Positions 4,547-25,325 of a stretch of DNA of 64,000 nt are shown here, in pieces. Source of the DNA: Extensimonas soli (GTDB taxonomy: Bacteria > Pseudomonadota > Gammaproteobacteria > Burkholderiales > Burkholderiaceae_C); the NCBI RefSeq assembly GCF_029211265.1, contig NZ_JARGEL010000026.1, positions 1 to 64,000 on the forward strand. Direction: 5' to 3'. Numbering within the stretch: the stretch's first letter is position 1; each line of letters opens with the position of its first letter. The translations under genes and the position numbers were made by a program. The notes under the pieces were generated by a model, which was given only the letters and a program-made list of their open reading frames with translations, was not told the origin of the DNA and did not search any database.

Positions 4547-5986
4547 ATGTCCAAACCATTCGACGTCGTCGTGATCGGCGCCGGCCCCGGCGGCTACATT
4601 GCAGCCATCCGTGCCGCGCAACTGGGCTTCAACGTGGCCTGCATAGACGCCTGGAAGAACGCCAGCGGCGGGCCGGCGCCGGGCGGCACCTGCACCAACA
4701 TTGGCTGCATCCCCTCGAAGGCACTGCTGCAGTCCTCGGAATATTTCGAGCACGCCAAGCTCCATTTTTCAGAGCACGGAATCACCGCCAGTGGCGTGAA
4801 GATCGACGCCGCACAGATGATCGCGCGCAAGGATGCAGTCGTGAAACAGAACAACGACGGCATCCTCTACCTGTTCAAGAAGAACAAGGTCAGCTTCTTC
4901 CACGGCCAGGGTTCGTTCGTCCAGGCCACCGAAGCCGGCTACGAAATCAAGGTGTCGGGCGGCAGCGAAGAAACCCTGCTCGGCAAGCAGGTCATCGTTG
5001 CCACGGGGTCCAGCCCGCGCGCGCTGCCCGGCCTGCCTTTCGACGAGGAGCTGGTGCTGTCCAACGACGGCGCGCTGCGCATGGGGGCGGTGCCCAAGCG
5101 GCTTGGGCTGATCGGCTCGGGCGTGATCGGCCTCGAGATGGGCTCGGTGTGGCGCCGGCTCGGCGCCGAGGTCACGATCCTCGAAGCGCTGCCGACCTTT
5201 CTGGGTGCGGCCGACGAGCAGATCGCCAAGGAGGCAAAAAAAGCCTTCGACAAGCAGGGCCTGAAAATCGCGCTGGGCGTCAAGGTCGATGAGGTGAAGA
5301 AGACCGGCAAGGGTGCAAAAGCCGCCCTTTCCATCGCCTACACCGACGCCCAGGGCGCGGCGCAGTCGCTGGAGGTGGACAAGCTCATCGTCTCGATCGG
5401 GCGAGTGCCACATACCGCGGGGCTCAACCCCGAGGCCGTGGGCCTGCAGCTCGACGAGCGCGGCGCCATCGTCGTCGATGCCGATTGCAAAACCAACCTG
5501 CCCGGCGTGTGGGCCGTGGGCGACGTGGTGCGCGGCCCCATGCTCGCGCACAAGGCCGAGGAAGAGGGCGTGGCCGTGGCTGAGCGCATCGCGGGCCAGC
5601 ATGGGCATGTCAACTTTGGCACCATTCCGTGGGTGATCTACACCAGCCCCGAAATCGCCTGGGTGGGGCGCACCGAGCAGCAGCTCAAGGCGGACGGCGT
5701 GCGCTACAAGGCGGGCACCTTCCCGTTCCTCGCGAATGGCCGCGCGCGCGCGCTCGGCGACACCACGGGTATGGTGAAGATGCTGGCCGACGCCGACACC
5801 GACGAAATCCTGGGCGTGCACATCATCGGCCCCATGGCGAGCGAGCTCATCGCCGAGGCTGTGGTGGCGATGGAGTTCAAGGCCAGCAGCGAAGACATCG
5901 CGCGCATCTGCCACGCGCACCCGAGCCTGAGCGAGGCCACCAAGGAAGCCGCGCTCGCGGTGGACAAGCGCACGCTGAACTTCTGA
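4547..5986 (+). CDS. lpdA: Dihydrolipoyl dehydrogenase (E3)
   Basis: This FAD flavoprotein re-oxidises the dihydrolipoyl arm of SucB and reduces NAD+. The 479 residues begin with the FAD-binding GAGPGGY, followed by the redox-active disulfide [13 protein letters not shown] (C49 and C54). A second Rossmann motif ([10 protein letters not shown]) binds NAD. The C-terminal dimer interface carries the active-site pair HPSLSE (H458, E463). The residues between the FAD motif and the cysteines include a short insertion ([14 protein letters not shown]) typical of betaproteobacterial E3. It is third in the sucA-sucB-lpdA operon, with a 95-base gap after sucB. Confidence 0.97.
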
Positions 5987-6001
5987 AACTTATAGAGAAA
6001 T

Positions 6002-6200
6002 TGGCTGCTAGTGTAGTGTTTGATACTTGATGCGACAAATAAAACCGATGGATTTTTGGTCTGGGCAAGGCGCAAACCGCAGCGATACCGGGTGGTATCG
6101 CGAGGATTTGCAACGCGGCCCGGGCCGAAAAGACGCGGTTTTATGTCGCAGATAGCGTCGAACACTACACTAGTGCTTGTGTATCAAGCACTGGCAGCTA
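6002..6200. repeat. Comamonadaceae-type palindromic intergenic repeat, split by a MITE
   Basis: Joining 6002-6011 to 6174-6200 rebuilds a palindrome of the form GGCTGCTAG/TGCTTG...CAAGCACTGGCAGCTAT. This matches the other intergenic repeats in the window at 14631, 19171, 22856 and 25111. The family core contains CTAG, and the element at 6012-6169 was inserted exactly there. The palindrome lies between lpdA and zapE. Confidence 0.7.
6012..6169. mobile_element. MITE-like element, 158 bp, CTAG target duplication
   Basis: The ends are TGTAGTGTT and AACACTACA. The similarity continues inward as an imperfect terminal inverted repeat of about 35 bases that includes GCGACA and AAAACCG on both sides. 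CTAG occurs immediately outside each end (6008-6011 and 6170-6173) and occurs once in the rebuilt target, so it is a four-base target duplication. A smaller palindrome (GCGATACC/GGTATCGC) lies in the centre. There is no open reading frame, so a transposase would act in trans. A CTAG duplication fits the YTAR target preference of IS5-family elements, but the family assignment is inference. Confidence 0.7.
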
Positions 6201-6222
6201 TTCTTTTCATAGAAACTCCAAC

Positions 6223-7323
6223 GTGAACGTCAAAGAGGCCTACCAGGCCGCACTCGCCGCCAAGGGCTTTCAGAGCGATCCGGCGCAGCTGCGTGCCGTG
6301 CAGGCATTGCAGCGCTGCGCCGACGAATGGGCTGCCTACAAGGTGCGGCGCTCGAATGCGCTCAAAAAGCTCATCAACCGCCCCGAGGTGCCGCGCGGGG
6401 TGTATATGTATGGCGGCGTGGGGCGCGGCAAGAGCTTTCTCATGGACTGCTTTTTCCAGGCCGTGCCGATCAAGCGCAAGGTGCGCCTGCACTTCCACGA
6501 ATTCATGCGCGAGGTGCACCGCGAGCTCGCTGCGCTGCAGGGCACGGTCGATCCGCTCGACGCGCTCGGGGCGCGCATTGCCAAGCGCTACAAGCTCATC
6601 TGCTTCGACGAGTTCCATGTGGCCGACATCACCGACGCGATGATCCTGCACCGCCTGCTCGTGGCCTTGTTCGACAACGGCGTGGGCTTCGTCACCACGT
6701 CCAACTTCGCGCCCGACGATCTGTACCCGAACGGTCTGCACCGCGACCGCATCCTGCCCGCGATCGCGCTGCTCAAGCAAAAGCTCGAAGTCGTGAACGT
6801 GGACAACGGCACCGACTACCGGCGGCGCACGCTCGAGCAGGTGCAGCTGTACCACATGCCGCTCGGTCCTGCGACCGACGCGGCCATGGCACATGCCTTT
6901 GCGCAGCTTGCCGAAGGCTCGGACGACGATGACCCGCTGCTGCACATCGAGGGGCGTGAACTGCGCGCGCGGCGTTGTTCGGGCGAGGTGGTGTGGTTCG
7001 ACTTTCGCACCCTGTGCGACGGGCCGCGCTCGCAAAACGACTACCTCGAAATCGCCACGCGCTTTCACACCGTGCTGCTGTCCGACGTTCCGGCGATGAC
7101 TGCGAGCATGGCCTCGGCGGCGCGGCGTTTCACTTTGCTCGTGGACGTGTTGTACGACCGGCGCGTCAAGCTGGTTCTTTCGGCCGCGGTGCCGCCCGAG
7201 CAGCTTTACACCGAGGGGCCGCTCGCGCACGAGTTTCCGCGCACGGTGTCGCGGTTGCACGAGATGCAGTCCAAGGAATACCTGGCGCTCGAGCGCCGCA
7301 GCGTCGATACGGGGTTGACATGA
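6223..7323 (+). CDS. zapE: Cell division protein ZapE (AFG1-like ATPase)
   Basis: ZapE is a cytoplasmic AFG1-type P-loop ATPase that affects Z-ring stability. The 366 residues begin with GTG (6223). They carry the Walker A motif GGVGRGKSF (G64-S71), the family segment LHFHEFM, and a Walker B FDEFHV followed by DITDAMILHRL. The sensor-like FVTTSNFAPDDLY comes next. Length fits the family at about 360-375. It ends in an ATGA overlap with the following gene, so the two are probably translated together. It follows the citric acid cycle operon but is separated from it by the MITE-disrupted repeat. Confidence 0.93.
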   Translation: MNVKEAYQAALAAKGFQSDPAQLRAVQALQRCADEWAAYKVRRSNALKKLINRPEVPRGVYMYGGVGRGKSFLMDCFFQAVPIKRKVRLHFHEFMREVHRELAALQGTVDPLDALGARIAKRYKLICFDEFHVADITDAMILHRLLVALFDNGVGFVTTSNFAPDDLYPNGLHRDRILPAIALLKQKLEVVNVDNGTDYRRRTLEQVQLYHMPLGPATDAAMAHAFAQLAEGSDDDDPLLHIEGRELRARRCSGEVVWFDFRTLCDGPRSQNDYLEIATRFHTVLLSDVPAMTASMASAARRFTLLVDVLYDRRVKLVLSAAVPPEQLYTEGPLAHEFPRTVSRLHEMQSKEYLALERRSVDTGLT

Positions 7324-13318: not shown

Positions 13319-13356
13319 CCAAAGGGCGCCGGCAGCTACCTGCCGGCGCCCTTTGG
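13319..13356. terminator. Bidirectional terminator between glgB and bktB
   Basis: A 16-base perfect stem (CCAAAGGGCGCCGGCA paired with its complement) surrounds the loop GCTACC. It sits between the convergent glgB and bktB genes, 10 bases after the glgB stop. The symmetry lets it serve both strands. There is no strong T run. Confidence 0.75.
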
Positions 13357-25110: not shown

Positions 25111-25325
25111 AATAGCCTCTAGGAGCCTGTCGGACTTTGGAATCGTCGGCTGCGAATGCGCCGCAGCGGCCCATTTTTTACCGTCTTCTTGCCCCATAGT
25201 CCCGCTATGGGGCTGCGAATCCGGCAAAAACTGGTCTCGCTGGGGCGCATTCTCGCTTTCGACGCCCAAAGTGCGGCAGGCTCCTAGCGCCCGTGTATCA
25301 AGCGCTGAAGCTATCAAAAGATTAG
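25111..25325. repeat. Palindromic intergenic repeat split by a second MITE
   Basis: Joining 25111-25122 to 25288-25325 rebuilds AATAGCCTCTAG followed by CGCCCGTGTATCAAGCGCTGAAGCTAT, a copy of the family repeat. The CTAG core is again the insertion point, here of the element at 25123-25283. Confidence 0.6.
25123..25283. mobile_element. MITE-like element, 161 bp, CTAG target duplication
   Basis: Ends are GAGCCTGTCGGACTTTGG and its near complement (CCAAAGTGCGGCAGGCTC), an 18-base terminal inverted repeat with two mismatches. CTAG lies directly outside both ends (25119-25122 and 25284-25287). The centre holds a perfect CCCCATAG/CTATGGGG hairpin. There is no coding sequence. It is unrelated in sequence to the element at 6012, but has the same size, same target and same host repeat. 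Confidence 0.75.

Follow-up and report, generated by a model that had tools for sequence, protein, structure and literature searches.

The gap between lpdA and zapE in Extensimonas soli, which lies in the window analysed here (the whole stretch of 64,000 nucleotides), contains a short repeat inserted into a palindrome, an arrangement that raises the questions of what directs such an element to its target, which transposase is able to move it and what its middle part may do. A preliminary description of the locus had recognized a MITE set in the CTAG core of a palindrome of the family, and had regarded such palindromes as landing sites.

The element and the palindrome that it interrupts

The features of the locus are collected in Table 1. 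As described previously, a MITE inserted at CTAG occupies the gap between lpdA and zapE: it is 158 bp long, has terminal repeats and is bordered by CTAG on both sides. Without a transposase, shorter than 300 bp and present at 62 full-length sites in its genome, it has the properties of a non-autonomous MITE. Its exact end pattern is found far above chance, with 80 matches in its own genome and none for a reversed-pattern control, and the left-end motif occurs at 66 places in that genome (3.44 Mb in 50 contigs; control 0). The inverted ends, which had been called near-perfect, are complementary at 77% of 35 nt in an ungapped comparison, and in place of the separate central hairpin of the preliminary description the entire 158 nt makes one long fold-back hairpin. 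Folded as RNA, the hairpin reaches −89.8 kcal/mol (z = −12.1), a value equalled by none of 200 shuffles, and its fold is likewise strong as DNA (z = −7.1).

The CTAG duplication claimed earlier holds in so far as CTAG is found on both sides, while the duplicated unit may be either TA within CTAG or the entire CTAG, since the sites fit either. TA inside CTAG is the usual duplication for IS630. A REP/RAYT repeat, that is a palindrome of 20–40 bp with an unpaired GTAG or CGTC tag, was ruled out by the length of 158 bp, the terminal repeats and the target duplication, and Rfam covariance models gave no match up to E = 5 in positions 5900–6300 of the window.

Table 1. Features of the lpdA–zapE region, in window positions
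Feature	Positions	Strand	Remarks
lpdA, dihydrolipoyl dehydrogenase	4547–5986	+	TIGR01350, 527 bits
Palindrome left arm, outer part	6004–6011	+	GCTGCTAG; arm resumes at 6174–6179
CTAG target, left copy	6008–6011	.	Exact empty site known for another MITE copy
IS630-type MITE, 158 bp	6012–6169	+	Strand given is the one folding better as RNA
Left terminal inverted repeat	6012–6037	+	
Inner 108 bp	6038–6145	+	Common to 160/399 family genomes, where varying terminal repeats bound it
Conserved 48-nt centre	6067–6114	+	AAGGCGCAAACCRCAG ... GCGAGGATTTGCAAC; conserved internal loops; also seen between unrelated arms
Right terminal inverted repeat	6144–6169	−	Reads TGTAGTGTTCGACGCTATCTGCGACA on the minus strand
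CTAG target, right copy	6170–6173	.	
Palindrome remainder	6174–6198	+	TGCTTG, loop TGTAT, right arm CAAGCACTGGCAGC
zapE	6223–7323	+	NF040713, 453 bits

Removal of the element together with one CTAG does restore a palindrome between lpdA and zapE, GCTGCTAGTGCTTG-TGTAT-CAAGCACTGGCAGC, with 13 of 14 pairs. Its core, however, is the TGTAT loop and not CTAG as had been proposed, the latter forming bases 5–8 of the 14-nt left arm. That the MITE interrupts a palindrome of the family is confirmed by the orthologous gaps of other genera, five of which, in five genera, contain the palindrome free of the element (L217, L219, L223, L237 and L244, among 29 loci); no such palindrome was seen in the remaining 24, and the MITE occurs in none of the 29. 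One of the five element-free palindromes scores as a terminator, with 18 pairs and a T-rich tail; no such terminator was found in the gap of the window with the element present. Elsewhere in the window, positions 13319–13356 form a 17-pair palindrome, CCAAAGGGCGCCGGCAG-CTAC-CTGCCGGCGCCCTTTGG, perhaps a terminator.

Copies, empty sites and movement

The 62 full-length sites are distinct and were counted among fetched loci of the genome, where six further copies are cut short or lie at contig ends; those copies checked by BLAST are mostly 95–100% identical. The 4-bp flanks are identical at 47 of the 62 sites (CTAG/CTAG at 45) and unequal at 15. At one locus (L053, 477–796) two copies stand in direct tandem with one CTAG in common, one having been inserted into the CTAG beside the other.

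The MITE is present in all three genomes of the genus that were examined, with 40 scored copies in the congener G002. Its exact end pattern was matched in five of 399 family genomes, comprising three congeners and two others; the matches in these two, which are of another genus, were dismissed as chance occurrences within coding sequence. None of the G002 sites examined (23 of the 40 scored copies) coincides with a fetched site of the genome under study (G000), and two of the 23 have an empty counterpart there. One of these is exact, reading ...GACAGGCTGCTAGACATGG in G000 (L361) and ...GCTGCTAG[158]CTAGACATGG in the filled site of G002 (L376), and the other reads CCAG at the target. Empty sites, which the preliminary description had suggested searching for, are thus found, rather than 158 bases conserved as one unit with no empty site, the outcome that it had named as contrary to insertion. 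Comparison of the exact empty site with its filled counterpart indicates duplication of CTAG and, as judged from these genomes, the IS630-type MITE has evidently been active since the congeners parted.

Choice of target

If the palindromes themselves were preferred landing sites, with the transposase drawn to hairpins, nesting of one repeat in another would be the rule. The lpdA–zapE site itself speaks in favour of this, as do a few copies next to which, as judged by eye, there is a weak or broken palindrome (L003, L011, L021, L069, L071 and L072). Under a fixed test, however (arms of at least 9 bp with at most one mismatch, the same for both sets), a hairpin was recognized at one of 62 insertion sites, compared with none of 128 background CTAGs taken from a 400-kb genome sample and the window (Fisher p = 0.33), and sites in ordinary sequence have only CTAG or a one-base variant of it in common. 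Targeting of palindromes, as advanced in the preliminary description, is therefore highly improbable: the preference of the MITE is for CTAG, not for palindromes. At the present locus the element would have hit a CTAG in one arm of a terminator-like palindrome downstream of lpdA, because a free CTAG was available there and not because of the palindrome.

CTAG is scarce in this genome, being 3.6 times rarer than expected in the 400-kb sample (108 occurrences against 387 from trinucleotides) and occurring 22 times in the whole window against 86 expected by shuffles. The commonest counted neighbour of a MITE insertion is another mobile element. Indeed, the end of a second repeat (CTAG followed by SAGCCTGTCGGACTT) abuts 23 of the 62 insertions but only 22 of the 128 background CTAGs (p = 0.0035). 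The nesting of repeat in repeat is thus accounted for by the CTAG target together with neighbouring mobile DNA.

The parent of this second repeat is an IS1182-family element of ~1526 bp with the same ends and CTAG flanks (L113, L115 and L116). Repeat and parent adjoin in L115 (1205–2895) and L116 (610–2300), with one CTAG in common. The window itself contains a 161-bp copy of the second repeat at 25119–25287, with CTAG on both sides and the ends GAGCCTGTCGGACTT, the right end showing two mismatches.

A probable IS630-family parent

The preliminary description had also proposed searching for a full-length IS with the same ends, and this search led to elements of the IS630 family, whose ends are closely similar and whose flanks are CTAG. 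In the genome under study, a search with PF13358 (DDE_3) located the 3′ end of a transposase with which contig C7 begins; next come GAATGAAACACTACA and CTAG. The same 3′ end terminates C14, opens C43 and lies at an end of three contigs of G002 (C1, C5 and C9), while a left end, CTAG followed by TGAAGTGTTTTATTCTTAATG and a start codon, was found at the start of C48. Since its ends sit at several contig ends, the IS630 element is probably multi-copy and breaks the assembly. The ends of these own-genome fragments (C7, C14, C43 and C48) match the MITE at 15 of 19 positions only.

Named IS630 relatives have terminal repeats of the type CTAG followed by TGTAGTGTT, and measure ~1.15–1.18 kb where both ends were found; 80 loci of such relatives were collected, in part of which the pairs picked as ends were shifted or unrelated. 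The best match is L192 from Acidovorax delafieldii, in which 18 of the first 19 bases of the left end agree with the commonest left-end variant of the MITE and 13 of 19 agree at the right end, and whose protein is assigned to IS630 by NF033545 (269.9 bits; cut-off 100). No complete IS630 with the exact ends of the MITE was seen in its own genome, the best-matching full IS being that of another genus. Two other kinds of parent were rejected: transposases of the rve type (IS3/IS481), for which the PF00665 loci have no matching ends, and those of the DDE_Tnp_1 type, the loci of which yielded the IS1182 parent of the second repeat and an IS5 element with GGAAGG ends (L111). Many copies of close IS630 relatives (among L130–L193) are carried by plasmids of Cupriavidus necator UYPR2.512, from which the transposase might be obtained for laboratory work.

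The ends, the CTAG flanks, the copy number, the empty sites, the IS630 relatives with closely similar ends and the IS fragments in the same genome are all direct observations. As to movement, we infer that it occurs in trans, an IS630-family transposase binding the ~26-bp ends of the MITE, mobilizing it and inserting it at CTAG.

A common middle between differing ends

The inner 108 bp were matched in 160 of 399 family genomes and in 80 of 141 genera. In most of the elements fetched, the flanks are CTAG-like and terminal repeats are again present, although their kind varies (TGYRGTGTT..., TGTGCTGYCCCGC..., TACTCAGACACAGA... and others). Among 100 elements subjected to an end test, 46 passed, 48 failed and in six the core was not found again; those that passed fell into clusters of 30, 6, 5, 3, 1 and 1 members. 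Element lengths are 157–162 bp (157–159 bp in the 30-member TG cluster, 159–162 bp in the GGAACC cluster and 158–159 bp in the TAC cluster), except for the last cluster, which is a hairpin of 81 bp.

Elements that have only the 48-nt centre in common with the window include an end type, GGAACCTCTGAACAA (GGAACC), with CTAA flanks, which resembles that of the IS5-family element L111 of the congener G001 (ends GGAAGGTCTGATCAAAG and GGATGCTCTGAACAATTCC; protein NF033581, 353 bits). In L298 the centre is identical to that of the window at 46 of 48 positions, while the arms score no better than shuffles do (−13.5 versus −15.2, sd 5.0). Such elements were fetched for their non-matching arms, so that unlike arms are expected by selection, and the point of interest is the near-identical centre.

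The middle could in principle be leftover IS sequence without a role, the MITE being a plain internal-deletion derivative of IS630, which is the usual view of the origin of bacterial MITEs in passages of PMC3189936 and PMC10969869. Against this, the core model has no match in the 80 IS630-relative loci, in four IS1182 loci or in the IS5 locus L111, its one match among the 85 sources of the IS-locus set being the element of the window itself, and the same centre stands between IS5-like ends. An origin of this kind is accordingly judged very unlikely. Instead, from the comparison of these elements, the inner 108 bp, with the 48-nt centre inside, are seen to form a distinct structured module, which is met again in MITEs whose ends differ. 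Since related bacteria have the folded motif inside elements with quite different ends, the middle of the MITE appears to be portable and to serve a purpose of its own. On the core tree the end types are clustered, requiring seven changes (minimum possible 2; shuffles 15), and the well-supported branches force one end change only; repeated exchange of ends within the 108-bp lineage is likely, although not proven.

In a sample of the phylum, 61 of 398 genomes and 35 of 213 genera gave a match to model R1, figures that include weak matches and rest on rough E-values; the frame AAGGCG...CAACGC is visible in most of the 29 phylum loci inspected, in elements of MITE length or in stand-alone hairpins. 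The core was found in four of 72,556 plasmid records and in no phage, nor was it found in viral contigs when searched for as one exact pattern. In 12 other loci Rfam recognized only a tRNA gene and, in L300, one sub-threshold match outside the core. The search of plasmids for IS partners of the other end types returned only repeat copies in records where no gene was annotated at the matching place, a single unrelated gene, or no match at all. Neither the letters of the core nor MITEs with a common core and different ends were found in the literature covered, which mostly excluded subscription papers. Genome G027 (2.7 Mb) has the most first-look core candidates among the genomes listed (181), and its loci L305 and L306 are core hairpins without transposon-like ends.

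Compensatory change and strand preference

The fold of the middle was evaluated in two sets of homologues: A1, comprising 50 of 52 full-length core matches (a near-copy, L246, and L291, which is cut by a contig end, were left out), and A2, comprising 29 sequences with diverse arms, chosen for diversity from 74. In A1, 22 of 37 pairs have changed on both sides and 97.2% of cells are paired, against 34–46% when slid, with all five measures above those of all 500 shuffles (0/500). In A2, 21 of 30 pairs have changed on both sides and 93.6% are paired (0/500 shuffles). The internal loops AGGCG versus CAACG and RCA versus GA, as well as a bulged A, are unpaired and yet conserved throughout the family and, in part, outside it.

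As RNA, the plus strand folds more stably in 46 of 49 homologues of A1 (mean −10.3 kcal/mol), in 27 of 29 of A2, in 30 of 35 phylum-wide matches (A3) and in 15 of 17 elements whose arms are unlike. The sign test for the last group (p = 0.002) overstates the preference, because inspection by eye groups the 17 elements into about eight lineages, with the plus strand favoured in about six. For the MITE of the window the values are −89.8 (plus) and −66.2 (minus), whereas the 48-nt core of the same genome has no preference when taken alone (−22.1 versus −21.8); in the second repeat, used as a control MITE, the strands differ by only 3.5 kcal/mol. Part of the preference in A1 comes from ancestral G–U columns (12/98 and 23/87).

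Two explanations that dispense with a folded RNA were weighed against these results. In the first, covariation would be unselected and would arise from quasi-palindrome correction, in which DNA polymerase templates one arm of a hairpin on the other. Templated arm changes are known in long fold-back sequences, and the whole element is one such fold-back. Correction, however, should have erased the AGGCG/CAACG and RCA/GA loops and the bulged A, which stay unpaired and conserved, and it predicts no strand preference, whereas G–U cells outnumber A–C cells in A1 by 156 to 12 (the pairing having been predicted on the plus strand, which favours G–U). This mechanism is therefore unlikely to be the source of the covariation. 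In the second, it is the folded DNA that matters: extrusion as a cruciform or single strand would join the ends and aid transposition by any transposase, and hence explain both a common centre and a constant length. The strong DNA fold and the near-constant length within the end clusters, both given above, are in line with such a role, but a better RNA fold on one strand is not predicted by it, and on balance we find it rather doubtful.

Proposed role as RNA

A role at the RNA level is favoured because the stems change in a compensatory manner with G–U pairs on the plus strand, the internal loops are fixed and the strand preference recurs. Transcription running in from adjacent genes would yield the core as a folded plus-strand RNA, which would most likely act as a hairpin in processing or stability and so allow insertions to be tolerated. 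Taken as a whole, an IS630-mobilized MITE inserted at CTAG, with a separate structured middle that probably acts as RNA, is an explanation in which we have good confidence. More tentatively, the 48-nt centre might represent an undescribed class of portable structured RNAs of Pseudomonadota, riding MITEs, changing vehicles and acting as a one-strand RNA on host transcripts. Its possible carriers, proposed with the same reserve, would be elements whose terminal repeats are of IS630, IS5 or other type, along with stand-alone hairpins of ~80–106 nt.

Comparison with known systems

Among the described bacterial repeats, RUP of Streptococcus pneumoniae, a 107-bp MITE of IS630-Spn1 with more than 100 intergenic copies, resembles the element of the window by description in being short and non-coding, with IS630-like ends and TA in the target, and in lying in or beside other mobile elements (passages of PMC2229807). 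According to the same passages RUP is without other signatures of structure or function, in contrast to the conserved structured module with compensatory changes found here. MITEPsy1 of Pseudomonas syringae, a 100-nt element of IS5/ISPsy2 type whose target, duplicated on insertion, is CTAG or YTAA, has ends, GGAAGGTCTGAAAAAGCC, that resemble the GGAACC/GGACCC type around the same core and differ from those of the window element, as far as a comparison of ends with the sequence in passages of PMC3189936 goes.

The Correia/NEMIS elements of Neisseria are likewise described as MITEs with TA at the ends. A transcript hairpin is proposed to regulate the neighbouring mRNA through RNase III, which offers a precedent for a processing role of the core; the passages of PMC2229807 on which this likeness by description is based make no mention of an exchange of ends. 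The TIMEs, which are Tn3-derived miniature elements, are also non-autonomous and modular, with a replaceable core and transcripts predicted to fold, but in them, as presented in parts of PMC4133298, Tn3-type ends are fixed and cores are exchanged, whereas the present elements retain the core and vary in their ends. The GTAG/CGTC-tagged REPs, palindromic intergenic repeats of 20–40 bp found in many proteobacteria, have the palindromic structure, the intergenic location and the proteobacterial hosts in common with the MITE and, as characterized in passages of PMC3733652, differ from it in lacking terminal inverted repeats and target duplication.

Concluding remarks

The view that CTAG is scarce and often lies beside mobile DNA replaces that of palindromes as landing sites, and provides a simpler account of nested repeats. 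The feature that the preliminary description missed is the conserved structured core. Bacterial MITEs are usually seen as pairs of ends with a throw-away middle, whereas in the present case no part is better conserved than the middle, which keeps its fold by compensatory change and is found enclosed by ends belonging to two transposase families or more. An element matched so widely in one family could be given an Rfam-style annotation, and its properties raise the testable question of whether MITEs carry functional modules and, if so, what keeps them.
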